From: Bdellovibrionales bacterium RIFOXYC1_FULL_37_79
Lineage (GTDB): Bacteria; Bdellovibrionota; Bacteriovoracia; Bacteriovoracales; Bacteriovoracaceae
DNA: 51,407 nt
Reading direction: 5' to 3'
NCBI GenBank assembly: GCA_001770015.1
Contig: MEQB01000020.1
Coordinates: forward strand, 1-51,407
The translations under genes were made by a program, and so were the position numbers. This document shows, piece by piece, positions 25,960 to 43,716 of the stretch (position 1 is the stretch's first letter; each line of letters opens with the position of its first letter). Below the pieces are notes generated by a model that had not been told where the DNA came from, made no database searches, and worked only from the letters and a program-made list of their open reading frames with translations.

Positions 25960-25987
25960 TCAACGTCCCTTGCGCACTTTTTAGAAA

Positions 25988-28900
25988 TTATGGAACACTG
26001 AAAACACATCTGATTCCCACTTTATTGCCGGTGTAAGACCACTTAGGTCTGGTGTTATAAACACCTCCTTCGTCACCACCCATTTGCCAAGAACTCTCTC
26101 TTAAATAACCAGATCCCCCAACGGTAAGCTGGCGAGTAGATCCATCGGTGTATGCACTAAATACATCCGGAAGATAGTGGTAATTGAAAGGGCTATAATT
26201 ATCTTGTTCAGCAACTCTTACCAGAACACCAGGGCTTCCATCCCTGCTGGTGTCTTGGAAGTTCCAGCTATAATCTCTTGAGTTGATGGCAAACATATAA
26301 TTCATCCAATCGGGTAAATTATTATAACCGTTTAAGTTGTTATTGTTTGGCGGGGCTTGATAATCGTAACAACCGCTGGCGACCCCCCATTCAGCATTAA
26401 TACATGCAAATTTTAACCCGGCTAGTGGATTATAAAACTGGCTGGTTTGCTCAGCGAGAAATCCAAAAGAATCAGCTAAAAGATTATGCTTCCCATAGAA
26501 ATCTGTTGAAGTAGGAAGATATCCATCCTCAGTAGATAGTTTGCTGGTATGTTGCCAGTATTTTTTTATTTCTTCAGGAGTTTTGTTAATGTCTAGCATC
26601 CAACCGCTTCCTGAATTAATAAACCAATCATCGGTCATTTCAACTTCATTTCCAACAAAGTCTTGTAATCCAAATTTAGAAAAACATAAATGACTAGAAT
26701 GTTCGGTATTATTTGAATATGATCCGGTACGAAGCAAATGAGCTGCGTAATTAACAGGATCATTGCGGGTGGGATAATTATTTTTGGTGATATCAGTCGG
26801 TCCACCACTAACGGCCAAATCTTGATAAGGAACCGGATTATATTGAGCACCCTTGTCTCCGTCAGCAGTATTACAACCGTATTTGTCTTTTCCACTTCCT
26901 GTTAGATTTCGTCTGAGAGTGATATCAATGAGATCAAGTGGCGCTGCCTGTTCATGCCAATCACCCATGACAATATATTCCTGTCTGGAACCCAGGCGGC
27001 CAATGTAGTTGTTTCCATTAATGTTGATGGTTCGGTTGTTACAGTAGGCTTTTGCCTTTTCGTAGGTAGCAATGCGAGCGGGAGGGAGATAAGCCTGATT
27101 ACTAAAAATCTGATTTGAAATGTTGGTAAATTGGCTTATGGAAAAAGCGGGGTTGTCCAGATATGTCCAGGCCGTACTTGCTATCCCGTCAGCGGAAGTG
27201 TTTACCCAGATATCCGCCCGATCAAAATAGGCATCGTAATAATAAGTAGCATGATACTCGTTGACGTGTCCTAGTTCATAAAAGATGGTGTTGGCGTAAG
27301 CTTCATAGCGGTATGATAAATATTCTGCCACACAGTTATATGGTCCACCGTCGCTGCCATCAATGTCACAGGCATTCAATCCAATTTTTGCGCCAACTTC
27401 AAAGCGATCGACTAGAAAACTTTTACCAATATCGAAAACAAAATTGCCAGTGGTTTCATCCCTGGTGCTACCAACTCCGTTGTATTCACATTGATAATTT
27501 TTAGCAATATCGTAGTTTTTATTAGTAGGCGTGTTAAAGAGTGCACCTCGTGCCCCTCTGACTTGATAGGCGGTAAGGGAATTGGCATCATAATTTATTA
27601 CTCTATCAAAAGCGGCATCAGGAAATGCATGCTTGCCGTGATGAATATTTCTATCAATTTTTCTACATTGATGCTTGTTAAACATGTATCTATGAATAAA
27701 TGCCATATTAGGGGGGGGAACGATTACACTTAAAATAGCATTGGAACTATTAATGGCGTTTTCGGTAGCATCAGTACTGGCGAAAACCAGATCAACACCG
27801 TTAACCTTAAGTACTACTTGATAGTAATATTTGCGTGAGTGAGCAGGAATATTTTCATCTAAAAAGTTATATAAATATACATTTTCAATCAAAGGAACTG
27901 TTCCAATGATAGTAGCTCCACTCATATCAGCATTGAGAGATCGATTAACTACATACTCAGCGGTCGAACCAGAACCAATAAGGGAGTTCGCATAAACTCC
28001 ACTTAATTGAGAAAATTTAAAATCAAACCAGCTTAAAAAAACGGTACCTTCGGTATCGGGAGCGGAAGGGTCTTCTTCCATATACCAACCTTGCAAAGGA
28101 TCAATATCACTGGCGGCACCACTGCCAAGATAAGTTAGAGAATTTCTGGTAACATTACTTAGCTTCTCTTTTATTTTATTACCGTTATCGAGTCCATTGG
28201 TTTTTGGTCCTAACGCCATGATGTGTTCCCAACCCTCATGCACCACTTCTGGCTTGGAAGTTCTACATCTTCTTAGTACGCTTGGCCTAACAAAGAAAGG
28301 TATTCCAGGCCCCGCTCCATCAGCGTCATAATAAGTTTCCATAGCAAAAATATAGGTGGTATCAGGGTCGAGACCGTTTACGGTAAATGGGTTGGCAGAA
28401 ACTGCACCAGCAAAAAGAGGCGGAGTTAAAGACGGGGTTGCTAGAGGATCATAATCAAACTCTATTCTGGTGAAACCTGATCCTTCTCCCTTACCTTGGG
28501 CGACGATAGAGGTTGCGGCTTCGGCAACTGCATAATCCATTTCGGTTTCGTTCTCATCAATTTTATAATACAAACGGAACTGGCTATAGGTTCCCTCTGT
28601 TGGTACCAACCAGCTTACATTAAAACTACTGGAAGTGTTGGCACAATTACCGGCGCTTGGTCCCACAAAATTTGGCGCTTGATAATAAAAGTCTTTACAA
28701 ACAACTCTTCTGTCAGCAGTGGCCATCTCACGTCCCACGCCTCCTGGACCGTTAAAGTCTCCTTCTTTTGGAGCCACTACAAAGCAAAAACGATTCGGGT
28801 TATTGACATCAACTCCGGCGTTTACGTCTCTTACTGCAGCACTTACTAAAGTTGGGTCAGTTAGATCATTAACTGGATCAATATAAGGATCGTCGCTCAT

Positions 28901-30385
28901 AACATCGTTGGTATTTGTCAATTGACGGATAATGGTTCCGCTATTGTCGGTCTGATAGATAACGTATTCATCATAAACACCATTAGCGGTATCTGGTAGA
29001 GACCAATTGAGTTTGAGCCTGTCTAGGGCCCCACCAATAGTCTGAATGGATGTCACACCATTAAACGGACTAATTGGCGGAGTGGTCATTTTTTGAATTG
29101 AGTTGGCAGTTCCCGCTACTTCAGGTGATCCAGAAACACCACAGTTATTGATAGCGACAACATAGAAGTAGTAGTTAGTGTGTTTTTGTAAACCGTTAAT
29201 AGTAAATGACTCGGGATTGTTAGGTATTTCGTTGAGATTAATTGTTCCTCTTGGAACGTCGGAATCGATATCCAGCGGGAGAGCGCTACTTTTTGCGTAA
29301 TATTGGTATTTATCACACCCAGTACAAGCAGTGTAGCGGACTACGGCGCTGTTATATCCGTTGGTGTTTTTTGGAATCTCGACACTGGTTATTCCGCCAA
29401 AGTTGATATTGTTGATTTGCGGAGTGGTATAAGTAACGATGTGAACATTAGTCTCCATATTCATTCTAGCAGTTGAACTTATAACGTTCGTTGAAGATCT
29501 GACTGCAAAATGGTACTGAACACCAGAATTTAAGCCGGTCAGCTCGAAGTACGAAGCATTTATATTGTTAACGGTGGTAGCAGGAACAGCGGTAGGGTCA
29601 TTGAGTTTTTCAAGTAGTGCCTCCTGGCTGGTGGCATAATAGATCGAGTAAGAGTAGGGTGCATATTCGTTTAATTCATCAATAGCAGCATCATAAGTGG
29701 CGTTGTTATCGTTGAAGGTGGTAAAATTAATCCTTCCATCCTGGTAGAGGGTGAAATTTTCTGCCTTGAGAGTATTGAATCTTTCAATTTCAGATCTTAG
29801 CTCTGGAGATTTATTGGCTATACGCCAGGTTATCTTGGCACCGTTGTAGAGATTACATCCGGAAAGTGGAAGAATTGCTAAAATCCCATCGAATTCTGGA
29901 TAAAACTCATTGTGACTGCAAACTCTAAAGAAAGTTGCACCGCTATGGGATTCGCTTTCATCAGCTTTTGCAGCAATAATATTGTAAGTACCGCAATCAC
30001 CGCGACCGTTTGTAGGTACTGCGACAACGTATTGACCATCGGGGTTTAATGTTAGATTGGTATCCACAAATGAAGCAATGGGGGTATTGCCTCCATCGCG
30101 CATAACCTTGTACATAAATCCAACTTCTACGCCGCCTTCTCCGCCATTGGAGTTACCCTCGCCCCCGCCGATTAATTCAGCTGGTTTGAAGGTTAAATTT
30201 ATTCGTGCATCACTTATTGCCTGGGCCTCTGTTAATCCCTCAAAGGTGAAAGTAGGCGTCTGGTTAAGTGTTCCATCTCCTACGGCCAAATTTTCTTTGT
30301 TTTCTTTAATGGCACCAACGCAACCAAACAGCGAGAGAATAAAGACAGCAGTGATTGAGCGGATAAGGATTTTATTCTTCTTCAT
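25988..30385 (-). CDS. Giant surface lipoprotein with FN3-like repeats and C-terminal FGE-like domain
   Basis: 1465 aa. Lipobox LFGC (Cys22). The middle consists of about six FN3-like modules (signatures such as VQYHFAVRSS, NYYFYVVAIN, TTYIFAMETYY and KYYYQVVLKV). The C-terminal ~500 aa share with the downstream protein the pattern MAFIHRYMFNKHQC…CEYNGVGST…FLVDRFEVG and then an FGE-like end (FGLQDFVGNEVEM, GYLRESSW, VGIRCVFSVP). The usual GN[VL]WEW is altered to GNEVEM, so catalysis is unlikely. It is first gene of the unit and is divergent from the motor genes across a 425-bp region. I infer a surface adhesin or recognition role. Confidence 0.85.
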   Translation of the reverse strand: MKKNKILIRSITAVFILSLFGCVGAIKENKENLAVGDGTLNQTPTFTFEGLTEAQAISDARINLTFKPAELIGGGEGNSNGGEGGVEVGFMYKVMRDGGNTPIASFVDTNLTLNPDGQYVVAVPTNGRGDCGTYNIIAAKADESESHSGATFFRVCSHNEFYPEFDGILAILPLSGCNLYNGAKITWRIANKSPELRSEIERFNTLKAENFTLYQDGRINFTTFNDNNATYDAAIDELNEYAPYSYSIYYATSQEALLEKLNDPTAVPATTVNNINASYFELTGLNSGVQYHFAVRSSTNVISSTARMNMETNVHIVTYTTPQINNINFGGITSVEIPKNTNGYNSAVVRYTACTGCDKYQYYAKSSALPLDIDSDVPRGTINLNEIPNNPESFTINGLQKHTNYYFYVVAINNCGVSGSPEVAGTANSIQKMTTPPISPFNGVTSIQTIGGALDRLKLNWSLPDTANGVYDEYVIYQTDNSGTIIRQLTNTNDVMSDDPYIDPVNDLTDPTLVSAAVRDVNAGVDVNNPNRFCFVVAPKEGDFNGPGGVGREMATADRRVVCKDFYYQAPNFVGPSAGNCANTSSSFNVSWLVPTEGTYSQFRLYYKIDENETEMDYAVAEAATSIVAQGKGEGSGFTRIEFDYDPLATPSLTPPLFAGAVSANPFTVNGLDPDTTYIFAMETYYDADGAGPGIPFFVRPSVLRRCRTSKPEVVHEGWEHIMALGPKTNGLDNGNKIKEKLSNVTRNSLTYLGSGAASDIDPLQGWYMEEDPSAPDTEGTVFLSWFDFKFSQLSGVYANSLIGSGSTAEYVVNRSLNADMSGATIIGTVPLIENVYLYNFLDENIPAHSRKYYYQVVLKVNGVDLVFASTDATENAINSSNAILSVIVPPPNMAFIHRYMFNKHQCRKIDRNIHHGKHAFPDAAFDRVINYDANSLTAYQVRGARGALFNTPTNKNYDIAKNYQCEYNGVGSTRDETTGNFVFDIGKSFLVDRFEVGAKIGLNACDIDGSDGGPYNCVAEYLSYRYEAYANTIFYELGHVNEYHATYYYDAYFDRADIWVNTSADGIASTAWTYLDNPAFSISQFTNISNQIFSNQAYLPPARIATYEKAKAYCNNRTININGNNYIGRLGSRQEYIVMGDWHEQAAPLDLIDITLRRNLTGSGKDKYGCNTADGDKGAQYNPVPYQDLAVSGGPTDITKNNYPTRNDPVNYAAHLLRTGSYSNNTEHSSHLCFSKFGLQDFVGNEVEMTDDWFINSGSGWMLDINKTPEEIKKYWQHTSKLSTEDGYLPTSTDFYGKHNLLADSFGFLAEQTSQFYNPLAGLKFACINAEWGVASGCYDYQAPPNNNNLNGYNNLPDWMNYMFAINSRDYSWNFQDTSRDGSPGVLVRVAEQDNYSPFNYHYLPDVFSAYTDGSTRQLTVGGSGYLRESSWQMGGDEGGVYNTRPKWSYTGNKVGIRCVFSVP

Positions 30386-30810: not shown

Positions 30811-31779
30811 ATGATTGGTAAAATTATTCTAATATTTCTAGTTGCTGCGACTATGTGTTCGTGTTCCTTGGTAGGGGAGCGAGTGCCGAATGCGGAGTAT
30901 AGTATTTTTACTTCGGTGTCTGGAGCTAACGTTTATCGGGCTGATGGCAAGGTGGTTGGTCAGACACCGCTAATGCTTAAATGGGAAGATGTTGCTGATG
31001 TGGTTGACGGAAAGTTTGTATCATTCTTGGTGGAAAAACCGGGGTATTTTACCAGGGTAGTATTTTTCGATGCAACAGACAGTGTAAATCTTAAAATTGA
31101 TCTGGATGTAGATCGGGAATATAAAAATAAAAGACACGAATTAGCACTTCAGCAATTGAAAGATTTGCAAGAACAAAACGCAATTTTAGTGGAGCAAAAA
31201 AATTATTTAAAAGAATCGGTCGATCAATTTAAAAAAGATCAGAATAAGTATATTGAGAATATGGAAAAAATGAGCCTTGAATTGAAAGGAAGAGAGGAAA
31301 AATTGCATTTAATGCAAGTGGATCAAGCCTCAAGAGTTCCTGCAAGTGTTGGTCCGGTGTCAGACGTAACTTATAACGACCAACGAAGTCAGACAAGGGA
31401 CGCAGATTTACAAATTTTGGAATATAAACTGAAAGAATGTACTGCTCAAAAAAATAATAAATCTAACAGCGTGAAGATAACTGCAAAATATTTTCCACCT
31501 CCCAAAACTAATGCCATTATTAGGGAATTATTGACTGCCCAGTTTTTAATAATCAGTAAAAAATTTGATCAAGCAAAAAAGATAATTCTTGATTTGGAAA
31601 CTAAAAATCCAGAAGTTTCTTCTCTTTATACATTGCTAGCCTATGTGGAAATGCAAAATGGGAGCATTGATCGGGCTAAAAAATATGTTAAAAAATCGCT
31701 GGCGATTGATGGAAAAGACAGCATGGCCATGAGGATGAGGGAAATGATTTCATTAATTGAAAAAAAGGCGACTAAATAA
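30811..31779 (+). CDS. PEGA-TPR lipoprotein 1 of the motor locus
   Basis: 322 aa. Signal peptide ending MCSCS (lipidation at Cys16 or Cys18). Residues ~28-105 form a PEGA domain (SIFTSVSGANVYRADGKVVGQTPLMLKW, with the G-x-T-P-L turn, and VEKPGYFTRVVFF). A coiled coil at ~110-175 could span the periplasm. TPR-like helices occupy ~232-315 (FLIISKKFDQAKKIILDLETKNPEVSSLYTLLAY...GSIDRAKKYVKKSLAID). PEGA domains bind envelope components or partners and TPRs bind proteins, so a periplasmic connector is a natural role. Its TAA overlaps the next ATG by one base (TAATG), so it is coupled to the FliF/FliG-like protein. A shorter version lies at 37349. Confidence 0.85.
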   Translation: MIGKIILIFLVAATMCSCSLVGERVPNAEYSIFTSVSGANVYRADGKVVGQTPLMLKWEDVADVVDGKFVSFLVEKPGYFTRVVFFDATDSVNLKIDLDVDREYKNKRHELALQQLKDLQEQNAILVEQKNYLKESVDQFKKDQNKYIENMEKMSLELKGREEKLHLMQVDQASRVPASVGPVSDVTYNDQRSQTRDADLQILEYKLKECTAQKNNKSNSVKITAKYFPPPKTNAIIRELLTAQFLIISKKFDQAKKIILDLETKNPEVSSLYTLLAYVEMQNGSIDRAKKYVKKSLAIDGKDSMAMRMREMISLIEKKATK

Positions 31780-33395
31780 TGAAAGCTCTATTTGTTCTTT
31801 GGTGGGTGTGTTTAGGGATCAAGGTTGGTTTTGCCGGGTATACGAGTGATGTACAATCCGAAAAAGAAATTTCTCTCCTTGAACTTCAACTTCAATCAAG
31901 AATTAATCAAGTAATCAGGATAGTTTTTGAGGATTTAAATTTTTATGCCTCTGTAACCGTTAAACTGGATGAAAGAAAGTCGGCGGTGGAAAAAAATTTA
32001 GAGAATAACGAACTTGATTATCTTCCTCTTGTCATCAAAGATCAGGTAGATAGTGATAAAAATTTTTTAAAAATTGACGGGTATGATATCAGGATAGTAT
32101 CAGCTACTAATTATTCGAGTGAAATAAAAAATCAAATCAAGCAATTAATTGAAGGTGAATTCAAGGGAAAAAAATATAATGTGAGTTTTATTTACGTTGG
32201 AGCCAATGGTTTGGTGAGCAAAATTCGAAGTGTTTTCAGAAGTGTTTTGGTTGATAATCTTGGTAATTGGTTAATGTTTATACTGACGGCTGGGCTTGGT
32301 TTTTTTGGATATCAACTTTATAAAAGAAGAACATGGTTAACCCAGACTCACCTGAATGTTCTCGCTCATTCTAACGTGGATGAATTGGTTAAATTTATCA
32401 GGTCAGAGATCTCTAAAAATAAGAATATATTGAAAGTTCTGGTTAAGGAGGAGCGAAGCGATCTTCTAGGATTAAAAACCCTGATGCCTTATTTACAAAT
32501 TCAGTTTGTACCAGAAGATATCTTTATGAAATCGACACTTATACGAATGGAGCAGGAGAAAGGATTTTATACCGCTTTGGAATTTGACAACTGGCTAAAA
32601 GGGTTTTCTGAAAGAATATCAGCAAAACTTATCAAGGAAGGTAACGGGCCAATGACTAAAAAACTAGATGAAACCGTTTTGGCTGGTCTCAAAAATGTTC
32701 ATACTGATATTTTGGTTAAAACCTTGAAGGAAATAAATGATGTTTCAACCTATGCGGTAGTTTTTCATTATCTTGATGAAGTGATGATAAAAAAACTATC
32801 TTCAAAATTTGATAGGCCGTTTTGGGCAGAATTATCACCTAAAGATCTCTATGAACTTAATCACGAACATATTATAAAAAATGTCATTAATAGATCAAAA
32901 AAATTCGTCGGGATCGATGTGGTGAAAGTAACTGACGAAAAAACCAGATCAACAGATGAGATGATTGCTCAGGTATTTGCTACCTACGGTAAAAACGTGA
33001 CTTTAAATGAAACTTCACCAGATACTCTGGATCAATCTTTAAATATGTTTGCCGAGAAACTTGAGACTGATACATCTGAAGCTCAAGTGATCAATTTCTG
33101 CAAACCAGATTGGACCAAGGAAGGTATTACTAAACTGCCAGCTAACTACCTAACCAGAAAATTTGAATTCAAAACAGCGGAAGAGATTGCATCTTTACTT
33201 GTCAGTTTGCCCAAAAGCACCAGATATTTTATAATCTCTCATATACCTCAAGATAAAGTGAATACAATTATGATGATTCTTGAGTCAATTACCGAGGATG
33301 GGAAATCTCAAGAGGCACTTGACTGCTTTTTAAAGGAGATTGCGTCTGATTACCATGAGGGGTTATTTCAGTTAAATGAGAAAAAAGCTGCTTAG
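31779..33395 (+). CDS. FliF/FliG-like membrane protein 1
   Basis: 538 aa. Signal peptide 1-19. The periplasmic part 20-155 has LQSRINQVIRIVFEDLNFYASVTVKLDE and IRIVSATNYSSEIKNQIKQLIEGEF…VSFIYV, which resemble the last FliF periplasmic module (a strand, a helix, then 'v-x-V-x-x-x-F'). A single TM lies at ~161-180. The long cytoplasmic part 185-538 consists of helical bundles that recall FliG (KNVHTDILVKTLKEINDVSTYAVVFHYLDEVMIKKL; TAEEIASLLVSLPKSTRYFIISHIPQDKVNTIMMIL). It has the same layout as the 650-aa protein at 37981, and both directly follow a PEGA-TPR lipoprotein. The FliG resemblance is weaker than for the second protein. It is probably an inner-membrane ring or force-receiving component. 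Confidence 0.65.
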   Translation: MKALFVLWWVCLGIKVGFAGYTSDVQSEKEISLLELQLQSRINQVIRIVFEDLNFYASVTVKLDERKSAVEKNLENNELDYLPLVIKDQVDSDKNFLKIDGYDIRIVSATNYSSEIKNQIKQLIEGEFKGKKYNVSFIYVGANGLVSKIRSVFRSVLVDNLGNWLMFILTAGLGFFGYQLYKRRTWLTQTHLNVLAHSNVDELVKFIRSEISKNKNILKVLVKEERSDLLGLKTLMPYLQIQFVPEDIFMKSTLIRMEQEKGFYTALEFDNWLKGFSERISAKLIKEGNGPMTKKLDETVLAGLKNVHTDILVKTLKEINDVSTYAVVFHYLDEVMIKKLSSKFDRPFWAELSPKDLYELNHEHIIKNVINRSKKFVGIDVVKVTDEKTRSTDEMIAQVFATYGKNVTLNETSPDTLDQSLNMFAEKLETDTSEAQVINFCKPDWTKEGITKLPANYLTRKFEFKTAEEIASLLVSLPKSTRYFIISHIPQDKVNTIMMILESITEDGKSQEALDCFLKEIASDYHEGLFQLNEKKAA

Positions 33396-33999
33396 AAAAA
33401 ATTTTGTCTGGTTGTTTATCCTTGGGTTAAGTTTCGATGCTTATGCAGTGGTCACTTATAAGGATCAGCTTGGTATATCGCTTGGTATGATCAATGCTGG
33501 CTTTTCGCAAAATTCTGGCGCCTTTGATGAGACCAAAGGGGTTTCCAGTGGATCAGTAGCCGTTATTTCATTGGATTTTAATTATGAGTTTTTCACTTCC
33601 CGGAGAACCTCCTATTCTTTTAGAGCGACCGGTTCCGGTATTGCTGGTGAAGTTAGCAAATATTATGCGGTAAGCGGTGGTCGAAAATATTATTTTGGTG
33701 CTGATGGGGTAAGTGCAGTTTTTGTTGATCAAAACATCAAGGTAATTACCAATCCGGTATTTAGATACTATGCTGGCTGGAGTCTGGGTTTTTTTAGTAT
33801 GGTGTATGAACCCAAAAAAGAAGTTCGCAGCGATTTGGGTATTGAAATCGGGGGAAATGGCGGGATCTTATACATGGCCAATAATTCAACATCATATAAA
33901 GGTGAACTAAGTGTTTTACGAGGCGTGGGGGTGGAAACTACCAGTTTTATTATTCAAATTTTTGCAGGTGCTACCTTTTATATCAATTCTCTTTTTTAA
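33376..33999 (+). CDS. Small outer-membrane beta-barrel protein
   Basis: 207 aa. Signal peptide MRKKLLRKNFVWLFILGLSFDAYA, then alternating polar/hydrophobic strands with many Tyr/Phe/Gly (for example SVAVISLDFNYEFF, YSFRATGSG, YYAGWSLGFFSMVYEP), ending in a strand with terminal Phe (TFYINSLF), the classic BAM signal. The length suits an 8-strand barrel. The start overlaps the preceding gene by 20 bp, so it belongs to the same operon as lipoprotein 1 and FliF/FliG-like protein 1. It is probably the outer-membrane part of the same machine. Confidence 0.75.
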   Translation: MRKKLLRKNFVWLFILGLSFDAYAVVTYKDQLGISLGMINAGFSQNSGAFDETKGVSSGSVAVISLDFNYEFFTSRRTSYSFRATGSGIAGEVSKYYAVSGGRKYYFGADGVSAVFVDQNIKVITNPVFRYYAGWSLGFFSMVYEPKKEVRSDLGIEIGGNGGILYMANNSTSYKGELSVLRGVGVETTSFIIQIFAGATFYINSLF

Positions 34000-34001
34000 T
34001 A

Positions 34002-35489
34002 TCAAAAGTAAACCCCTAGTCGGGCAGAGTATTCTTGTTTGTTGATCTCAAGCTTATTATTGATATTATCTCGGCGAAAGGTTTCTTTTCTATATTCACC
34101 ATCTGCCCAAAAACGGGTTCTCCACAATTTGTTGGAAAAAAAGTAACGAACATTCCATCCATAGCGATATCCATCGGGGCCGTCTTTTTCCCTGGGATCA
34201 CCATTTTTGGAACCAGCAATTGATTTTGCAAAATGAAGGCTAAGATACGTTTTGTTTCCCAAAATAGCGGGCTCAAAACTTATCCATTTAAGGGAATGGT
34301 AATTGGCAACGATGCCTTTCCCATATTCATTAAGGTTGGCATAGTGCAAGTCACTTTGTTCATAATATAAGGATGGTAAAAACCAGGAATTTAATTTATA
34401 ACCGACACCTGATCTGAATAAAAAATGGCCTTTCATGTCGATGGGCCTGGTCTTTAAGGCTTTATCTATTTCAATTCCATTTCTAAAAAGCAATTTAGAA
34501 ATATGTAATGGATTATAGTAGATCCATTCTGTAGTAAAACCGATAAGTGAATAAAATTCATTTTCAATGCGAACGAGATCGGTAATTACTAATCTTCTTT
34601 GCACATATTTCCAGGCAAAATGAAACTGGTGTGAACCAAGTCTTTGGGATAATTCATCATCAGTTTTCAAAGCAATGTTTGCCCCTAGAATAAATGGATT
34701 GGTGACATTTGTTTGGTTAAGCGGGCTGGTCTTATGGGATTTATTATTATTTTGAGAATTATTCAACGATGTGGATTGCAAATTCCACGGCACATCAGAA
34801 TCTGAGTCTTCCAAAAGTTTCCATAAACTGGATTTTATTTCTGATGAAGAAAGAGTAGAAGATAGCGTTTTTAAAGTATGTACTTTTTTAGGATCTGAGG
34901 TTAGATTTTTGGTTTCTTGTAATGTGGGAGGTTGGGTTAAATCAGGTTGCCCAGAAAATTTTTCTTGGACTGGTATAGGCCGTTTATCCAATTTTTGCTT
35001 ATGAATGGAGTCGATTTTGTTTTGTGAAGCTTTTTGAAAAGTTTCTTTTTCTTCTGGTCTCAATTTTTTTTCTAAAATAAATTCATAAAGCCCCAAACGA
35101 AATTCATATAATAATTCGCTTAATGATATTTTTTCATGCTTATCTTGCTTTATAATTTGGACTGCATCTGCATCAATTAGAAAAAATTCAATGCGATAAG
35201 AGTCCGGTCCATCAGTTCTAAGTTTGTACTTGAGAATGAATTGAGGTTTTTTGCTTCGAGCTAAATACTCAGGTATTTTACTAAAAACTAAATCATAAAG
35301 CTGGGTTGCTAAAACTACATCTACAACATGTTTTCTTAAAATATAATACTGATTAAAAAGACTTAAAGGTAGATCGGATGAAAAAAGAAAAAGTTTGGGA
35401 TTGTCGCCAGCGTTTGGTTTCAAGGCATAAGCAGCAGGAGTAAAACTGCAGCATATAATAATTATAAACAAGAATCTAAGCGGTATCAT
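34002..35489 (-). CDS. Two-part outer-membrane protein: TolB-N-like domain plus C-terminal barrel
   Basis: About 495 aa from ATG 35489, chosen because it puts a clean signal peptide (MIPLRFLFIIIICCSFTPAAYA) at the N-terminus; the frame is open back to 35558. Residues ~25-150 (LKYKLRTDGPDSYRIEFFLIDADAVQIIKQDKHEK and a final helix) recall the TolB N-terminal/CsgG-like fold. Residues ~150-280 are Ser/Gln/Lys-rich and disordered. The last ~220 residues read as a beta-barrel and end in YSARLGVYF. It lies in antisense orientation between the two halves of the motor locus. The TolB-N call is tentative. Confidence 0.65.
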   Translation of the reverse strand: MIPLRFLFIIIICCSFTPAAYALKPNAGDNPKLFLFSSDLPLSLFNQYYILRKHVVDVVLATQLYDLVFSKIPEYLARSKKPQFILKYKLRTDGPDSYRIEFFLIDADAVQIIKQDKHEKISLSELLYEFRLGLYEFILEKKLRPEEKETFQKASQNKIDSIHKQKLDKRPIPVQEKFSGQPDLTQPPTLQETKNLTSDPKKVHTLKTLSSTLSSSEIKSSLWKLLEDSDSDVPWNLQSTSLNNSQNNNKSHKTSPLNQTNVTNPFILGANIALKTDDELSQRLGSHQFHFAWKYVQRRLVITDLVRIENEFYSLIGFTTEWIYYNPLHISKLLFRNGIEIDKALKTRPIDMKGHFLFRSGVGYKLNSWFLPSLYYEQSDLHYANLNEYGKGIVANYHSLKWISFEPAILGNKTYLSLHFAKSIAGSKNGDPREKDGPDGYRYGWNVRYFFSNKLWRTRFWADGEYRKETFRRDNINNKLEINKQEYSARLGVYF

Positions 35490-35610
35490 TTGCCTAGTCT
35501 TATTGAAGGTACCTGATCTCATATAATTAATTATGAGATTAAATAGAAATATATTCAACTAAAGATGTTTGGGTAAGTTTTCCCATGTTGATTTTAAGAT
35601 GGAGAATATA

Positions 35611-36399
35611 ATGAATGTTGGTTCAATCTTGGCACTTTTTTCAGGTTTTTTTGTAAGTGTTGTGGGAGTTTTATTAACAACAAGTGACATAATGATGTTT
35701 GTTAATGGACCGAGTGTTTTTATTGTTATTGGGGGGACATTGGCGGCTACATCAATTTCCGTAAGAATACCCAAAATGTGGATATTAATTAAGATTTTCT
35801 TTTACAAAATGATAAAGGGTCAAACGGTAATTTTTCCAGAAATAATTAGAGAAATTATTAAATTAAGTTATGCGTTTTCCAGTGGAAAAGATATTAATCA
35901 GGAAGCTAAAAATATAAAGGATCCTTTTTTAAAGGAATGTATTCAGCTTTATCTGGATGATTTGGTAGACAATGAACATTATCTGAAAATTATTGATGGA
36001 CGTGTTAAGAATATGCACAAATCTCTTATGATTGACGTAAATCGTTTTAAAAATATAGGTAAATATCCTCCGGCGTTTGGAATGCTTGGAACGACCATGG
36101 GGATGATAGTACTGCTTGCAAACCTTGGAGGAAAAGATGCCATGAAAATAATGGGTCCGGCTATGGCTGTTTGTTTAATTACCACTTTTTATGGTTGTTT
36201 GCTTTCTAATATTTTAGTAATTCCTATAAGTGAAAATATTGATGATAGTGCCCAAGAAATATTTTTGAAGAATAAAATTGTTGTAGAGGGTATAAAATTG
36301 ATTTTAGCCAAAGCGCCACCTGCAATTTTAGCCGAGGAATTAAATTCACACTTAGACCAGGATGATCGTTTGGATTGGAAAGAGGTTTTGAGTGTCTAG
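35611..36399 (+). CDS. MotA-family stator protein
   Basis: 262 aa from ATG 35611 (GGAG seven bases upstream; an upstream in-frame start has no site). Four hydrophobic segments: two near the N-terminus (ILALFSGFFVSVVGVLL; GPSVFIVIGGTLAATSISV) and two late (YPPAFGMLGTTMGMIVLLANLG; MGPAMAVCLITTFYGCLLSNILVIPI), with a ~100-aa cytoplasmic loop. The Pro of 'PPAFGMLGT' and the GPAMAVCLITTFYG segment are hallmark MotA features lining the ion path. MotA drives rotation or force generation in flagella. No flagellar gene is present here. It overlaps the MotB gene by 8 bp. Confidence 0.92.
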   Translation: MNVGSILALFSGFFVSVVGVLLTTSDIMMFVNGPSVFIVIGGTLAATSISVRIPKMWILIKIFFYKMIKGQTVIFPEIIREIIKLSYAFSSGKDINQEAKNIKDPFLKECIQLYLDDLVDNEHYLKIIDGRVKNMHKSLMIDVNRFKNIGKYPPAFGMLGTTMGMIVLLANLGGKDAMKIMGPAMAVCLITTFYGCLLSNILVIPISENIDDSAQEIFLKNKIVVEGIKLILAKAPPAILAEELNSHLDQDDRLDWKEVLSV

Positions 36400-37291
36400 T
36401 GTTGAAGACAAACAAAAAAAAGTTGAAGAGCTTTTAAAAGAGCTTCAGATTGCCGATAAGGAAATTGAAGAACTTGAAACTTCGGCAAATTCTTCAACAG
36501 ACAGAAATGGTACCTGGCTTACTTCATATGCTGATTTAATGACTCTGGTAGCATGTTTTTTCATTATGCTGGTTGCGTTTGCTAATTTTGAAGATCCGTC
36601 TTTTCAAGGAAAGGCAAAAGATTTTGGGCGTTTTTTTAGAGGAGCATTGGCCATAAATTCCGGAGAAAAAGAAGATAAAATGGTGACTGGATCGAAAGAA
36701 GAGGTTAAGCGTGTAAAACCCAACGAATCCGAGACGAAACCAAAACAAAAAAAAGATTATTCCGCTCATATTGAGCAATTATCAAAAGTGGCCGGTGTTT
36801 CAGAGATTGCAAAACCCAGGGATATAGAGGTTATTTTTAAAGGATCGGCCATGTTTGAACCAGGTAGCGTGGACACAACGCCTGAAGTTGAGGATTCTCT
36901 GGATGTGATGATAGATTTGATTCTGGAGCGACAGGCAGATTTTATTATACTTTTTGAGGGACATACTGATGATACAGATATCAGCAACAAGGTTTATCCC
37001 TCCAATTGGGAATTGAGTGCAGCCAGGGCTGCTCGTGTTCTTAAAAAATTCGAAAAAGCCGGTATTCCAAGAGAGCGGTTGGTTGCAGTTGGTTACGGAG
37101 ATTCAAGACCGGTTTATGATAATCGTGACCAAAAAGGTCAGTCAATTCCTGCAAATCAAAAACTTAATCGTCGGGTGGTGATAAAAGTTCTTCATGATAA
37201 AGATGCACCTAAGGAAAATTTCGGTCTGGGGGTTTTTTTTAAGGGGAAAAAGTTGCCTGAAAAAAAACAAAAAAAACAAGAACCTAAGTAG
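36392..37291 (+). CDS. MotB-family stator protein with OmpA-like peptidoglycan-binding domain
   Basis: 299 aa, start GTG 36392 with AGAGG upstream. A charged, coiled-coil-prone cytoplasmic tail (1-40), then TWLTSYADLMTLVACFFIML with the ion-binding Asp48 at the start of the single TM. A ~120-aa Lys/Glu-rich linker includes the plug region. The OmpA-like domain (~175-285) has FEGHTDDTDISNKVYPSNWELSAARA and VGYGDSRP, the peptidoglycan-binding pattern. With MotA it forms an ion-driven stator anchored to the cell wall. The ~120-aa linker is on the long side. Confidence 0.93.
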   Translation: MSSVEDKQKKVEELLKELQIADKEIEELETSANSSTDRNGTWLTSYADLMTLVACFFIMLVAFANFEDPSFQGKAKDFGRFFRGALAINSGEKEDKMVTGSKEEVKRVKPNESETKPKQKKDYSAHIEQLSKVAGVSEIAKPRDIEVIFKGSAMFEPGSVDTTPEVEDSLDVMIDLILERQADFIILFEGHTDDTDISNKVYPSNWELSAARAARVLKKFEKAGIPRERLVAVGYGDSRPVYDNRDQKGQSIPANQKLNRRVVIKVLHDKDAPKENFGLGVFFKGKKLPEKKQKKQEPK

Positions 37292-37348
37292 ATCTGGAAA
37301 TTAAGTCGTTAAATTAACAGTATGGTGAGATGGAAAATGGAAGTGTTT

Positions 37349-37984
37349 ATGAAACCTCGATTGTTGAATATTATATTTATCGTCTTAAGTGTCTTGATTG
37401 GATGTAGTTCCACACGGGAAATTTCCATTAAAAGTACTCCGGATGAAGCAGAGGTTTTTATAAAGGAGTTGGGTTCGGATAAGCTTGAATCCATAGGTAA
37501 AACACCACTTGTACTTGAGGAAAAAATAATTGATAAAGTTGTAAATACCGAGAAAGCTCCAGTGTTGATTGAAGTGAGAAGAGCCGGGTATATGAAACAA
37601 CAATTGATAGTTAATAATCTGGGAAAAACCAATATCCATTATGATATTAATCTCGAAGCCAATAATATCTCCAATATTATCAGTAAAATAGATGATGTAG
37701 GTACAGGTCTGTTTGAAGTTCAAAGGCTTCTTCGGGCCGGCGGATATGAAGAGTCCTTGAAAATGTTAAAGGAATTAAATGAGCAGTATCCATATAGCTC
37801 CATTATTCATGAGTTAACCGGGGCAGCTTATTATTTTAAAAAAGATTATAAAAATTCATTAATCTATTATGACATGGCCTATAAATATAATCCTAATAAT
37901 GCAGATGCATTCCGAATGAAAAAATATTTAGAGGATGAACTTGGCGTTGAAAGACCATTGGCGAAAAAAGGAAGTAAACAATGA
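37349..37984 (+). CDS. PEGA-TPR lipoprotein 2 of the motor locus
   Basis: 211 aa from ATG 37349 (GGAAG just upstream; the frame opens at 37322). Lipobox LIGC (Cys19). A PEGA domain ~25-105 (ISIKSTPDEAEVFIKELG, IGKTPLVLEEK, VRRAGYMKQQLIV) and TPR-like helices ~125-200 (LLRAGGYEESLKMLKELNEQYPYSSIIHELTGAAYYFKKDYKNSLIYYDMAYKYNP). It resembles lipoprotein 1 but lacks the long coiled coil. It overlaps the next gene by 4 bp (ATGA). It probably connects the FliF/FliG-like protein to periplasmic or outer-membrane partners. Confidence 0.85.
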   Translation: MKPRLLNIIFIVLSVLIGCSSTREISIKSTPDEAEVFIKELGSDKLESIGKTPLVLEEKIIDKVVNTEKAPVLIEVRRAGYMKQQLIVNNLGKTNIHYDINLEANNISNIISKIDDVGTGLFEVQRLLRAGGYEESLKMLKELNEQYPYSSIIHELTGAAYYFKKDYKNSLIYYDMAYKYNPNNADAFRMKKYLEDELGVERPLAKKGSKQ

Positions 37985-39933
37985 TAAGTCGAAACTGCAC
38001 CATTATTAAAACGGGTTGGATAATATTATTATTTGGTTTATGGAGTATTAAGGTCATAGGGGCAGATTTGAATAAAGCATCTGTTCAATGGCAACGAATT
38101 GATCTGGAAATTTCATTAAAGGAACGAATAACCAATCTGGCAAGACAAGTTGTGGAACCGGAAAAGTTTTTTGTTGAAATTCATATTGAAACCAGAAGTC
38201 CCTCTATAGGATTACCTAACTATGATTTTTCAAAAAAGGGAAACAAGCTAATTGAATTCAATGACACTAAAAAAAATAGCAACGGCGAATATATTTTATT
38301 TGATAAATTGGGATTAAACGCACCCAAATATAAAAATGGGAGCGAAGAATCGCTGGAGGAATTAAAATTAAAAATTTTTCAATATGAGAAAAAAGTCGAG
38401 CGGGATTTTTTTGACAAAATGGATATTTTTTCTAATTTGGATTCGATAAAAATTAAAATAGGATTAGATCAAACAGTCAAAAAAGATCAAGTGGATAAAT
38501 TAAAGAAACTTTTAGATCAAATGATTCCAAGCTTTGGTGATGTTAAACCAAGTATTGAAGTTATTTCCTTAGATTTTAAAATTGCACAAAATCCAGCTTC
38601 TTTTGCGCAAAAGGCATCATTTATATCAGGACCGCTTGGAATTGTGCTTGCTTCTTTGTTGTTTTGCCTGACTACTTTTTTAATATTTAACAAGTATAAG
38701 GCACTCCGGGCTGAATCTTTAAAAAAAGATGCAGACATGGAAGCAGAAGCCAAAGAGATCAGAACGGAATCAAAATTACCAAGTACGGATTCCATGGTGG
38801 ATCCCAAACTTAGACCGGGTTCTTCAGGGCTTATTGAGGCCATCACGGAAGCTCATGAAGGAGTGGAAAGATTTTGTTTATATCTGGAGAAATCATATGA
38901 CCAGGCAACAAACCTAGTAAAAAAATGGATTAATTTAAATTCAAAATTAGCAAATGCTGCGCTTGTTATATTATCAGAAAGATTATCGGTAGAAGAGTTG
39001 TACAAAGTATTCATGAAACTCAATGCGGATGAAAGAGATGAATATACCAAACGAACTACAAGTGCGGATCTTGTTCTTAATGCAAAAAATAGTGCAGATA
39101 AATATATTGGACAACAAGTTTTAGAAGATATTATTACGGTTTCAGTGACTGAAGATAAGGAATTACAAAAACTTTTAGTTGAATTAACGCCACAAAAAGC
39201 GGCTGAGTTGGTCAGTCAAAATATTGAAGAAGGTGCTGTCTTGATTAATTTAATGAGTGGTGATTTTTTGGGACAAATGTTTCAGTTTGTGGATGTTGAA
39301 AAAACTAAGATGCTGACTATGCGGGCGCTTTTCTTGAAAGAAGAGGATTTTAAATTAAGTATTGAAGCACTCAAAATTACCTTGGAGCAATTTTCAGATA
39401 GAACGTATAAAAATCCTTTTGAAAGAAAGGTGGTTGAAGTGATGAAAGAACTTGATCATCAAAAACAAGAAAATTTTATGGACGTTCTGGTAGATGCCAA
39501 ACAGTTTTATTTGATCGAAGATATAATAAAAACGACGTTTCCAACAAGATTAATCGACAAACTTCCCGGATCTATTTTAAAAGAAATATTCAAGGATATG
39601 CAAATTGATCTTAAAGTTGAGTTTTTAGCATCACTTGATGAAACTAAAAGAAAAAATTATATAAGAAAAACTACCCAGTCAGGTACAAAGGGACGGGAGG
39701 TTATTGAATTTGAGCTTAAAAGAGTCCTGGAAAATGAAGAGGCTATGGAATATGTAAGAGAAAAGAAAGAGGAAATCCATACTCTTTTTATCAAGTTAGT
39801 TCAAAACAAAATAAAAAAAGATGAATCTGCCCGTAAAATTGCTATTGAAATTGCTCAAAAATGGTTTGAAGAAATTTCTTCCGGCAAAATTGACCTGGGA
39901 GACGAAGATTCAGGCATGGATATGGCCGCCTAA
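37981..39933 (+). CDS. FliF/FliG-like membrane protein 2
   Basis: 650 aa. Signal peptide 1-28. The periplasmic region 29-212 has ERITNLARQVVEPEKFFVEIHIE and, at ~155-200, SIKIKIGLDQTVKKDQVDKLKKLLDQMIPS…SIEVISLDF, which closely follows the pattern of the C-terminal periplasmic domain of FliF. TM ~214-236. The cytoplasmic part holds FliG-like helical repeats (NAALVILSERLSVEELYKVFMKLNADERDEY; LVELTPQKAAELVSQNIEEGAVLINLM) and a C-terminal FliG-C-like part (~530-650: LPGSILKEIFKDMQIDLKVEFLASLDETKRKNYI, ending in a long charged helix). It would be the rotor-side target of MotAB. No flagellum-specific gene is nearby, so I regard it as a non-flagellar rotor/force receiver. Confidence 0.75.
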   Translation: MISRNCTIIKTGWIILLFGLWSIKVIGADLNKASVQWQRIDLEISLKERITNLARQVVEPEKFFVEIHIETRSPSIGLPNYDFSKKGNKLIEFNDTKKNSNGEYILFDKLGLNAPKYKNGSEESLEELKLKIFQYEKKVERDFFDKMDIFSNLDSIKIKIGLDQTVKKDQVDKLKKLLDQMIPSFGDVKPSIEVISLDFKIAQNPASFAQKASFISGPLGIVLASLLFCLTTFLIFNKYKALRAESLKKDADMEAEAKEIRTESKLPSTDSMVDPKLRPGSSGLIEAITEAHEGVERFCLYLEKSYDQATNLVKKWINLNSKLANAALVILSERLSVEELYKVFMKLNADERDEYTKRTTSADLVLNAKNSADKYIGQQVLEDIITVSVTEDKELQKLLVELTPQKAAELVSQNIEEGAVLINLMSGDFLGQMFQFVDVEKTKMLTMRALFLKEEDFKLSIEALKITLEQFSDRTYKNPFERKVVEVMKELDHQKQENFMDVLVDAKQFYLIEDIIKTTFPTRLIDKLPGSILKEIFKDMQIDLKVEFLASLDETKRKNYIRKTTQSGTKGREVIEFELKRVLENEEAMEYVREKKEEIHTLFIKLVQNKIKKDESARKIAIEIAQKWFEEISSGKIDLGDEDSGMDMAA

Positions 39934-39996
39934 GAGTATTTTTCCTATCTTCATTTTAACAAGATAATCAAGGCATAATATTAATAAGATAAATTC

Positions 39997-42900
39997 TTGT
40001 CGAATGAGGTCGTGGTGGAAAGTAATAAAATTGAAAGTAAACTTAAAAAAGTTAATGAATTGGTTGAACAAAAAAACTATTTTGAAGAAAAGAAGAAAAG
40101 ACAAATAATCGCAACCACCACACATGAAATTGATGGAATTCAAATTGATCAGAAAGTTTTTCAAAAAAAATATAAATATGAAAAGTTGAAAAATGTTTTT
40201 TCTGCTTCCCTGGCAAAAATAAAAATTGGCCAAGGAAAACGAAAAATTGATGAAAATATTCGTAAAATTGAAACGTTGAATAAAAAAATTGAAATGCTTG
40301 GGAAGGAGACGGAGGATAAAAACAAGTTATTGCTGGAAAAATATCAGGTTTTGGATCAACAAAATGAAAGTATAGAAAGAATTACTCAAGAAATTGATTT
40401 GGTAAAAATTAATATCGAAAATATTAATTACGAAATAGATGCCAAAGATCGAAGTGTGAAAAGTAATAAAAAAGTGGAACAAGAACTTGAAAAAAAAATC
40501 ACAGAACTGAAGGTCAGGCTTGAGCAAGGTCTAATTGAAGCCGGGGCAATGAAGAAAAGCCTGGATTGGCAGGCTGACTTTTTACGGGAAAAACAAAACG
40601 AAAAAGAAAATATCGAAAAAGAGATTGATGGTTTGAATATTCAAGCGGCGGGAGGAGTAAGTAAAAAAGAAGCACTAAAGTATGAAACCGGAAGGCTTGA
40701 AAAACAAATTTGCGATTTAATTGGTGTGTTAAATATAAAGCGAAAAGAAGTTGAAGATATTAATAAAAAATGTGAACAAGTATCGGGTTTTTTGAAATCG
40801 GTGGAGAATACTTATGAGGAAACCAAACAAGAGTTGGCGGGTCTAAATAGCAAAGAGGAATATCTAAAACAAGATATAAAAAATATTAATGAGAAGGTTA
40901 ATTATATTAAAAATCAGATTCAGGATTTTGAAGATAAAAGAAAAGAAGTTCAATATAAAATTATAGATAAAGAAAAAGAAGCCGGCCAGGTAAAGGTCGA
41001 GATGGCCAGCCTTGATTCAAAATTAACTGAACTCCGATTTGTTTTAGATAGTAAACAGAAAAAATATAATATTGTCAGTTTTCACACGGAAGAGTTAAAA
41101 GAGAAACTTAAAAAATTGAAAGAAAAAATTGATTTATGTGAAATTGATTCAAAACAACTTGATGCAGAAAAAGGACTTTTAGAATCAAAAAATCGTGAGT
41201 ATGTTGCAGCACTTACCCAGCTTCAAAGTGATTTGACACAAGTCGAAGGAAATCTGGAGGAAAAGAAAGCAGAGGTTGAAGATTATAATGCAGAAATCGG
41301 AATTTTAGAAACTAAAATAGAAGGCCATAGTGAAAAATTGAATGCAGTAAGTTTTAAATATGAATCGGCAAAAGCGGAATATGAAAACGTACAGATTATT
41401 AAAAACAACATTATTAAAAAAAGCTTGGAAATAGAAAATGATTATGAAAGTATCTGCCAAAGTGTTCGGGAGGTTGAATCTAAAAAGCATCAGATATTGC
41501 TTGATTTGGAAAAAGAGAAAGCCAATCAACTGATATTGAAAAATGAAATTTTGGAAAAAGAGTCAACCCTCGAAAAAATTTCACAAGAAAATGAAGGTTT
41601 GGTTACGCAGCTTGAATCAAGTGCCAGTGCTAAAGAGTCGTTAAATATTAAAGTGAATGGGTTGCAGTCGGAGATAGCTAGATTAAATCAAATTAAAATT
41701 GAATTTGATTATAAGACAGCTGAAATTAGTCGTGAATGTGAAGCTATTAAAAATGAAATAGCAAATCAAACAATAATTTTGTCTCAAATACATAATGATA
41801 TAGAAGAAAAAAATATTTCTTATAAAAAAATTGCTAGCGAAAAATTTCAACTTCAGGAGCAGTATGAATTTATCTTGGCGGAATTGGAAAAGCACCAAAG
41901 AGTGTTACTAACTAAAGGCGATGAAAAGAGAAGTGTTGAAGAAGAGATTTATAAAACAACTCAAAAAAACCAGACGTCTGCGAATGATTTGAAAATCATT
42001 AAAGATGAAATTGTTGAGTACCAAAGGGAAATTAAAATATTAAAGGATACCGAGCTTGGAATTAAGCAAGATTTAGATGAAAGTCAAAAAAGAGTACAAA
42101 TACTTACGGAAAAAAAGAATTGTCTGATTAAAGAAGGACAAGATTTTAAAAATAAAAATGAAGAGCTAAATCAATATGTTCAAACCCTAAATGAAGAAAT
42201 AGTTTTACTTGAAAAATCAATTGGCGCTAAACAAGAGGAAAAAAGCCTAATTGAGAACAATATTAGAAGCCTTCAGCTAACAATCAAGGATAAAGGTAAA
42301 TATCTCTCATCAATTAAGCAAAGTCATAAAAAAATTGATAATGAACTCATGCGTGTTGATGAAATCAAAAGTAATTTTGAAGATGACTATACGCAAATAA
42401 AAGAGAGAATTCAGCAGGAGGAATCCGAAAGACATGCAAAAAATATAAAACTGGAAGGCTTGAAAAAAGATCTGTCGAAAATCCAGTCTGATGTGGAAAA
42501 TGCAAAGCTAGTGGAACATAAAATCAAAATAGAAATCGATTCTCTGAAAACGTTGGTGGTTGACTGTCAAAAAGAAATTGATAGAAACAATGAGGAAATG
42601 GACACTATTCAAAAAAGTATATTTATACAAAAAGATAGGACCCAGGGGCTTGAGGAAGAAGTGGGAACAAAAAACAGCGAGTTAAGAATCAGCACTGGCC
42701 TTTTAAAATCAAAAAAATATGATTTGAATTTATTAAACCAAAGAGAAGAGAGTTTTATTGCGGAGATAAATTCTTTGGAAAATAAAATTAGTCAAGTCTT
42801 GATAGAGATAGAAAAAAACCATAACTTGGTCATCACCAAGCAGCGAGAAATTAACATAAAAAATACTAAGATTGAAATGTTAACTGAAAAAATGACGGTG

Positions 42901-43716
42901 GTCAGTCGTGAATGTAATCAAAAGCTCAAGGATGTTGAAGAAATGGATGCAGATATCATGCAGCTAGATAATAGGATTATGGCATTAGATGCAGAATATA
43001 AGATTCAAAATGAACGCAAGGATTTTGTTGAAAAACAGTTATTTCAGACTAAAAGCAGATTGGCTGATGGGTTGAATAAATTGGCTTCTCTTGAAGATGA
43101 GTGTCAAAATCAAAACATGGTCGCCGATAATGCTAAAAATCAATTTAAAATTGCCAGAAAGGAATTACGGGACATTTCTTTGCAAACAATTTCGAAACAA
43201 CGTGAAATATCAAATCAGGAAAATATTATCGACTATTACGAAACGAGAACTCAAATGCAGGGAAAGCCTAATTTGCCACCTATACCGAAATGTTTAAATA
43301 ATATGGGATTTGCAAAAGCTAATAGTGATTTTGAGGTAATAATAGATTCCCTAAAAGAAAGTTTTCCGATTTTAAAAATTAATAATTTAAGTCAAAACGC
43401 CAAAAAATACCTGATCAAGGAAAGGGAAAAGTTTGTAAAAGTATTAAGTTTGATTGCCTCGCTTTCTAGAGATATGAACAAAATTGTTGTGGGGAATAAT
43501 GTCAATGATATTTTAATTCAATTTGATGGTGACACATTTACTGATGGCCTTACCAAAGAATATTTTGAAGAAAATTTGATGAAGGAAATTGGTGATCAGA
43601 AATTTAATCTCAAGGATTGGTATATCAATAATCAGCGACTATTTGGAGTGGTGCGGATTGAAACAGAACGGTTCAAAGCTTTATATCCAGAAGTAAATTT
43701 TCAGGAAAATGTGTAA
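39997..43716 (+). CDS. Giant cytoplasmic coiled-coil protein (1239 aa)
   Basis: Residues ~1-1090 are almost uninterrupted heptad-type sequence rich in Lys, Glu, Gln, Ile and Leu, with no signal peptide or TM, so a long cytoplasmic coiled-coil rod. The C-terminal ~130 aa (from about PPIPKCLNNMGFAKANSDF) have mixed hydrophobicity (FPILKINNLSQNAKKY, ILIQFDGDTFTDGL, GVVRIETERFKALYP) and form a globular cap. The start is TTG 39997 or GTG 40015, the latter better placed behind GAGGT. It follows the FliF/FliG-like gene by 63 bp in the same direction. It is not SMC-like (no Walker motifs). I infer a scaffold, comparable in logic to AglZ of Myxococcus. Confidence 0.75.
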   Translation: MSNEVVVESNKIESKLKKVNELVEQKNYFEEKKKRQIIATTTHEIDGIQIDQKVFQKKYKYEKLKNVFSASLAKIKIGQGKRKIDENIRKIETLNKKIEMLGKETEDKNKLLLEKYQVLDQQNESIERITQEIDLVKINIENINYEIDAKDRSVKSNKKVEQELEKKITELKVRLEQGLIEAGAMKKSLDWQADFLREKQNEKENIEKEIDGLNIQAAGGVSKKEALKYETGRLEKQICDLIGVLNIKRKEVEDINKKCEQVSGFLKSVENTYEETKQELAGLNSKEEYLKQDIKNINEKVNYIKNQIQDFEDKRKEVQYKIIDKEKEAGQVKVEMASLDSKLTELRFVLDSKQKKYNIVSFHTEELKEKLKKLKEKIDLCEIDSKQLDAEKGLLESKNREYVAALTQLQSDLTQVEGNLEEKKAEVEDYNAEIGILETKIEGHSEKLNAVSFKYESAKAEYENVQIIKNNIIKKSLEIENDYESICQSVREVESKKHQILLDLEKEKANQLILKNEILEKESTLEKISQENEGLVTQLESSASAKESLNIKVNGLQSEIARLNQIKIEFDYKTAEISRECEAIKNEIANQTIILSQIHNDIEEKNISYKKIASEKFQLQEQYEFILAELEKHQRVLLTKGDEKRSVEEEIYKTTQKNQTSANDLKIIKDEIVEYQREIKILKDTELGIKQDLDESQKRVQILTEKKNCLIKEGQDFKNKNEELNQYVQTLNEEIVLLEKSIGAKQEEKSLIENNIRSLQLTIKDKGKYLSSIKQSHKKIDNELMRVDEIKSNFEDDYTQIKERIQQEESERHAKNIKLEGLKKDLSKIQSDVENAKLVEHKIKIEIDSLKTLVVDCQKEIDRNNEEMDTIQKSIFIQKDRTQGLEEEVGTKNSELRISTGLLKSKKYDLNLLNQREESFIAEINSLENKISQVLIEIEKNHNLVITKQREINIKNTKIEMLTEKMTVVSRECNQKLKDVEEMDADIMQLDNRIMALDAEYKIQNERKDFVEKQLFQTKSRLADGLNKLASLEDECQNQNMVADNAKNQFKIARKELRDISLQTISKQREISNQENIIDYYETRTQMQGKPNLPPIPKCLNNMGFAKANSDFEVIIDSLKESFPILKINNLSQNAKKYLIKEREKFVKVLSLIASLSRDMNKIVVGNNVNDILIQFDGDTFTDGLTKEYFEENLMKEIGDQKFNLKDWYINNQRLFGVVRIETERFKALYPEVNFQENV

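Follow-up and report, generated by a model that had tools for sequence, protein, structure and literature searches.

A putative ion-driven motor of the cell envelope with flagellar-type rotor and stator components in the Bdellovibrionota

The phylum Bdellovibrionota includes many predatory bacteria. Several described machines bear comparison with the locus reported here. The Agl motor of Myxococcus is TolQR-like (PMC3169522), and for the T9SS/GldLM system of Bacteroidota a rotary motor has been proposed that powers surface adhesins and parts associated with the outer membrane, with GldLM described as not homologous to MotAB (PMC13104615). A survey of BALO motAB pairs counts them as flagellar (PMC11323537). 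A search of open-licence papers returned no description of a system of the kind presented below.

A locus of stator, rotor-like and envelope proteins

We analysed a 51,407-nucleotide stretch (the window) of the genome of Bdellovibrionales bacterium RIFOXYC1_FULL_37_79 (Bacteriovoracaceae), an assembly of 4.36 Mb that is 95.8% complete. The following features are considered:

21793..25959, minus strand: giant HYDIN/ASH Ig and FGE-sulfatase-like protein, 1388 aa (Pfam); candidate cargo, not core
25988..30385, minus strand: giant fn3 lipoprotein, 1465 aa (Pfam fn3, E 8.5e-17); candidate cargo, not core
30811..31779, plus strand: PEGA/TPR lipoprotein no. 2, 322 aa, paralog of the product of 37322-37984 (same HMM family, E 9e-48)
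31779..33395, plus strand: FliF-FliG fusion no. 2, 538 aa, paralog of the 650-aa protein (hhalign)
33376..33999, plus strand: predicted small outer-membrane beta-barrel, 207 aa, core component (AlphaFold, structure matches, conservation)
34002..35558, minus strand: outer-membrane protein, 518 aa, periplasmic part and predicted barrel; family-restricted accessory
35569..36399, plus strand: MotA of the system, 276 aa, probable start Met15 at about 35611
36392..37291, plus strand: MotB of the system, with plug, OmpA-like peptidoglycan-binding domain and channel Asp48
37322..37984, plus strand: PEGA/TPR lipoprotein, 220 aa, LIGC lipobox (family alignment, adjacency to the fusion gene)
37981..39933, plus strand: FliF-FliG fusion, 650 aa (Foldseek, second structure aligner, profile search of PDB)
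39997..43716, plus strand: coiled-coil protein, 1239 aa, 63 bp downstream of the 650-aa fusion gene; doubtful member

All nine ORFs of the first-pass annotation were found at its coordinates. Its description of the genes as contiguous needs one correction, in that they do not form a single operon: the minus-strand gene 34002-35558 separates two plus-strand runs, 30811-33999 and 35569-43716. As it also stated, the locus contains no flagellar export, hook or filament gene; rod genes are absent too.

How does this locus compare with the machines above? With the flagellar motor it shares a MotA/PomA-type stator, a plugged, peptidoglycan-binding MotB and homologous rotor domains, in which FliF RBM3, TM2 and C terminus are followed, as in the flagellum, by FliG. 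It differs in that FliF and FliG are fused, that RBM1, RBM2, the first FliF TM and the EHPQ motif are absent, and that a PEGA/TPR lipoprotein and a barrel take the place of export, rod, hook and filament genes. Its general layout, an ion-driven motor with TPR-bearing and outer-membrane components, is that of Agl-Glt, but a MotA/PomA-type motor and a FliF/FliG-derived rotor stand here where Myxococcus has the TolQR-like Agl motor. A rotary motor driving outer-membrane or surface parts has been proposed for T9SS/GldLM, and we propose one for this locus from its genes; general Pfam/NCBIfam scans of the window proteins found none of the T9SS-type genes (GldLM, SprA, GldKN). Finally, the window MotB resembles ZorB of Zorya (PADLOC E 1.3e-15), but MotA gave no ZorA match, no other Zorya match appeared among the six proteins scanned with PADLOC, and a FliF/FliG fusion is found instead of further Zorya proteins.

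The FliF-FliG fusions and their stator

Profile comparisons and a predicted structure showed that the 538- and 650-aa proteins each combine a FliF RBM3-like domain, one predicted TM, a FliF C-terminal-like motif and a FliG-like part. Neither window protein matched FliF or FliG in Pfam and NCBIfam (HMMER; MgtE_N at E 4.7e-5 was the only match), so that profiles of relatives and structure were needed. The YscJ_FliF domain (RBM1-RBM2) has no match in the window, and its sole match in the genome lies on another contig (C42).

The 650-aa protein reads, in order, as a signal peptide, a FliF RBM3 domain with an insert (about 34-200), a TM (211-239) and, on the cytoplasmic side, a FliF C-terminal-like motif (about 294-320) followed by a FliG-like helical part (about 320-617). 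In its AlphaFold model (13 sequences; mean pLDDT 71, mostly 80-90 in the cytoplasmic part), the periplasmic part has a helix-strand-(insert)-strand-helix-strand order. When this model was compared with 350,542 PDB chains by Foldseek, ranks 1-12 were FliG, followed by a FliF-YlxF model, and FliF MS-ring RBM3 structures were among the weak matches. A second structure aligner, VIA, placed residues 34-200 on FliF 233-438 (RBM3 plus insert; Z 10.3, 2.7 A over 92 residues) and residues 519-617 on the FliG C-terminal domain (Z 10.6, 2.4 A, 89/89). Residues 320-614 matched whole FliG (Z about 11) with a large rmsd, which a different arrangement of the domains would explain. The OsmC/Ohr family shows an RBM3-like fold too, at a VIA Z of about 9 that is slightly lower than for FliF; thus, the fold by itself is not decisive and does not imply ring formation.

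Sequence profiles agreed with the structural matches. A search of all PDB sequences with a profile built from 18 homologs returned four matches, FliG first (E 9e-6), with FliF at E 0.096; a profile of seven Bdellovibrionaceae-type relatives found FliG at E 4.7e-10, and the fusions of two relatives (L143 and L146) passed the Pfam FliG_M cut-off. By hhalign, a group of 21 proteins, the 538-aa protein of the window among them, aligned to nearly full-length FliG (17-333; probability 98.2, E 5.3e-14) and, collinearly, to FliF 235-561 (probability 85.5, E 5.7e-6), the only part of FliF to align: RBM1, RBM2 and the first FliF TM are absent. The same group matched the 650-aa family at E 3e-23, and the 538-aa protein together with its L059 relative matched that family with a probability of 95.5 (E 1.5e-8). 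Early hhalign comparisons with small alignments were weak (FliG E 0.007, FliF 0.007) and became strong once Bdellovibrionaceae-type relatives were added; in the early, weaker round, control families scored E 0.02 or worse, except for MotA at 0.0098 in one sub-region test. Consistent with the first-pass reading of a FliF-like periplasmic module, one TM and FliG-like cytoplasmic helices, the relation to FliF and FliG was thus recovered both by profile (FliG E 5.3e-14, FliF E 5.7e-6) and by structure (the top 12 Foldseek ranks), and the FliG N-M-C fold was recognised in the fusion by both routes. The FliM-binding EHPQ motif was present in 0/57 fusions vs 20/21 canonical FliG proteins.

Most fusions also end alike: a small residue followed by Ala or Ser closes 53/57 of them (29 with Ala-Ala), vs 57/866 neighbouring proteins. 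This C-terminal tail (window ends 39933 and 33395) is possibly a binding or degradation tail.

The stator is of the MotA/PomA type. MotA matched Pfam MotA_ExbB (E 6.6e-18) and scored about 1e-35 against MotP/PomA vs 0.0019 against TolQ; because the homology matches begin at Met15, this residue (about 35611) is the probable start. MotB carries a plug (MotB_plug, 2.4e-10), an OmpA domain (6e-15) and its channel aspartate at residue 48, and has no ExbD/TolR match in Pfam. The MotA/MotB pair with Asp48 and an OmpA-like domain proposed from the sequence therefore stands. With TolQ at E 0.0019 only and a MotB that has a plug and an OmpA domain, the pair is not a TolQR-like AglRQS motor; neither is it a Tol-Pal/TonB motor of TolQ/ExbB plus TolR/ExbD.

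Does this stator act on the fusion? The MotAs of the system, counting five taken by search alone, form a clade (support 100/99) that includes the window MotA and lies apart from the flagellar MotA of the same genomes. A second MotA type was scored in the window's genome and in 24 relatives from the same family: it occurred in 10/10 genomes with the fusion (seen in G014 as a fragment only) and in 1/15 without it (p 3e-6); the one from the fusion-less genome fell outside the system clade. One of the 35 MotAs at fusion loci, that of L030, carries the motif ARRESVFALEK, which marks it as flagellar. Most system MotAs retain the Arg that corresponds to PomA R88 / E. coli R90, but the window copy has Ser there, and most of them have lost the Glu at the E98-equivalent position. 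On the fusion side, in a register that rests on hhalign, the FliG D289 position is acidic in 36/36 fusions of the 650-aa type and 19/21 of the other type, and a basic residue at 570, eight before the D289 position, occurs in 35/36 of the 650-aa type, reproducing the R281-D289 spacing. Residues of about 570-580 make up a torque-helix-like segment. The conserved charged positions, the separate MotA clade and the co-occurrence fit a kept MotA-FliG contact; they fall short of proof, since the window's R90-equivalent Arg and most E98-equivalent Glu residues are lost. A coupled loss of MotA E98 and FliG R281 was considered and dropped, as a basic residue persists at this position in many fusions and the alignment register is not certain.

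Envelope partners, conservation and relation to flagella

The two supposed PEGA-TPR lipoproteins do belong to one HMM family, although their domain labels are sub-threshold in Pfam: PEGA (0.0019) and TPR_14 (0.0021) in the 322-aa protein, TPR only in the 220-aa protein. As for the two predicted barrels, the 207-aa protein is modelled as one by AlphaFold (pLDDT 80.8, pTM 0.70) with structural matches to NspA, Ail, OmpA and OmpX, whereas the 518-aa protein is outer-membrane-like only by a weak Pfam match (OMP_b-brl, 0.093) and its Tyr-Phe end (GVYF); its homologs adjoin the module in 9/17 relatives' loci. The giant coiled coil of 1239 aa, given as a core part in the first-pass annotation, was rejected as such: it had no homolog in the neighbourhoods of 17 relatives, and similar coiled coils (594 and 679 aa) stood beside the module at only two other loci, L145 and L146.

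Fusion homologs occur patchily, in 87/369 genomes and 52/182 genera of the phylum. A divergent fusion type was found in 22/66 Bdellovibrionaceae-like genomes (among them a few weak matches, some probably canonical FliG). Named relatives with the locus, retrieved with a profile of a close homolog subset, are mostly Bacteriovoracaceae or other Bdellovibrionota. They include a MAG that bears the label Bacteriovorax stolpii and Bacteriovorax sp. BSW11_IV, which has the barrel, PEGA/TPR and fusion genes as a block (L077). The core, comprising PEGA/TPR lipoprotein, fusion, ~200-aa barrel, MotA and MotB, is present in at least eight families. When neighbours were scored within about 20 kb of 48 fusion loci, PEGA/TPR was found at 46 (directly adjacent to the fusion gene at 41), MotA at 35, MotB at 35 and the barrel, by HMM, at 27; 0/20 arbitrary 20-kb control stretches of the same genomes held any of these genes (p 7e-9 for MotA, p 3e-15 for PEGA/TPR). 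The barrel was present in 16/18 of the first loci, the window counted, and compact orders such as PEGA/TPR - fusion - barrel - MotA - MotB recur in several families. The genes are thus not scattered in relatives, and the neighbourhood comparison showed that the fusion, its own-clade MotAB, the PEGA/TPR lipoprotein and the predicted small barrel are inherited together across the phylum.

Some loci depart from this plan. The Bdellovibrionaceae-like L173, L174 and L175 carry a more divergent variant with MotA, MotB and a PEGA/TPR protein of about 290-300 aa, and also encode proteins of ~195 aa and ~330 aa and a ~585-aa FliG-like protein (FliG HMM 9e-8 to 2e-14). At L059 (9447-12034; G029:C39), a PEGA/TPR and fusion pair with no MotA nearby adjoins a 2540-aa protein; this pair may travel as a unit. 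L070 (6086-8625), L071, L072, L074 and L075 encode a PAS and degenerate kinase-like protein of 603 aa and a 236-aa protein, their genes sitting between the outer-membrane protein gene and the barrel gene in loci of the L070 type. That these two are versions of the window's 538/322 pair was rejected by hhalign.

Is the machine tied to flagella? The window's own genome has a separate canonical fliF-fliG operon, adjacent genes on another contig, and a flagellar-type MotA, and among 55 further genomes with the system, FlhA was found in 53 and FliG in 53. G108 (94% complete), in which no FlhA, FliP or FliG was found, carries the system at two loci. Both have MotA, MotB, PEGA/TPR and the fusion, and one has the barrel and a 518-aa type protein as well; the export apparatus is therefore not present wherever the machine occurs, judging from this single 94%-complete genome. 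Because G108 holds two copies and none of the three flagellar genes, the machine appears to be independent of flagella, and the description of the locus as non-flagellar is well supported. In G032, a genus-mate of G108 (99% complete), no FliG and no FliP was found. A YscJ/FliF-like protein of 500-530 aa is encoded beside a sigma-54 activator gene in G028 (L188, 8095-9690) and G032 (L187, 7642-9135), both without FliG_N or FliP.

A model for the machine and its alternatives

What is the machine likely to be? From gene content, profiles and models, we think it probable that the locus encodes a dedicated ion-driven motor that spans the envelope and that, although composed of flagellar rotor and stator parts, is not part of a flagellum. 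MotB would anchor MotA to peptidoglycan, and ion flow would turn the MotA pentamer, which would push the fusion at its FliG C-terminal-like part. At the inner membrane, the fused RBM3 domains may assemble into a ring or carrier; since the FliM-binding EHPQ motif is absent, the usual C-ring switch would not be used. The PEGA/TPR lipoprotein and the barrel could then pass force to the outer membrane. As a guess, the load would be a surface adhesin, with the giant Ig/fn3 neighbours as candidates, so that adhesins or the cell would be moved along surfaces or prey.

Giant Ig, fn3 or invasin-like proteins lie beside many copies of the module, and two are encoded in the window, in tandem (21793-30385, minus strand). 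The first (Pfam E 3.9e-25 for HYDIN/ASH and 1.8e-5 for the FGE-sulfatase-like part) belongs to the same HMM family as the fn3 lipoprotein, homologs of which adjoin the module in several relatives. Proteins of at least 1500 aa occur at 12/48 loci vs 0/20 controls (p 0.013), an enrichment that is not significant at 1000 aa, and giant surface proteins were rejected as core parts on account of this weak enrichment. Bdellovibrio carries Glt/Agl genes, already gliding candidates (PMC3169522), and a 2026 review calls the gliding machinery of the phylum unidentified (PMC13104615). Thus, for the load, one may reasonably guess at surface movement or adhesin handling. Gliding, prey attachment and secretion, the functions put forward in the first-pass annotation, are guesses as well.

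Alternatively, MotAB could energise a secretion, retraction or outer-membrane system, like SiiAB-SiiE, T9SS GldLM or Tol/TonB, whose rotation would serve the release, export or positioning of giant surface proteins rather than cell movement. The giant fn3, Ig or invasin-like neighbours, the outer-membrane barrel and lipoprotein in the core, and the proteins of 1566 and 1777 aa upstream in both G108 loci would suit such a role. We nonetheless regard it as unlikely: the barrel is of the small NspA/OmpX type, which is too narrow for a secretion channel, Pfam/NCBIfam scans of the locus proteins in the window revealed neither a secretion ATPase nor a channel, and the giants are only weakly enriched. 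Stators are known to sense load, and some relatives' loci contain the PAS and degenerate kinase-like protein and the 236-aa protein; the stator and the FliF/FliG carrier might accordingly sense surface contact or load and signal it with little mechanical work. This seems very improbable, as neither the window nor the loci of most other families contain those signalling genes, and a full stator with an intact channel Asp points to work. Least probable of all is an auxiliary flagellar part, a second stator set and modified rotor piece joining an ordinary flagellar motor: FlhA and FliG each accompany the system in 53/55 genomes and the BALO motAB survey treats such pairs as flagellar (PMC11323537), but two systems exist in G108, where FlhA, FliP and FliG were not found, the fusions lack EHPQ, and their MotA forms a separate clade beside a distinct flagellar MotA in the same genomes.

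We therefore retain the dedicated non-flagellar motor as the preferred reading. By its predicted parts, the machine works like a flagellar rotor-stator pair and fails several defining features of a flagellum. Whether it forms a separate class of ion-driven rotary machine, with a flagellar stator and a fused FliF/FliG rotor repurposed for outer-membrane or surface proteins, we judge to be evenly balanced. Having neither export apparatus nor rod, hook or filament, such a repurposed machine would be a candidate for surface motility in the Bdellovibrionota. If this is true, torque transfer of the FliG type also occurs outside the flagellum, and the locus would offer a natural reduced rotor-stator pair for studying how MotA pushes FliG. 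It would bear on the origin of the flagellum, as an assembly of FliF, FliG and MotAB that can do without type III export. The extra motAB pairs of predatory bacteria, counted as flagellar (PMC11323537), may in some species serve another machine, and a phylum whose gliding machinery has been called unidentified (PMC13104615) would have a candidate motor.
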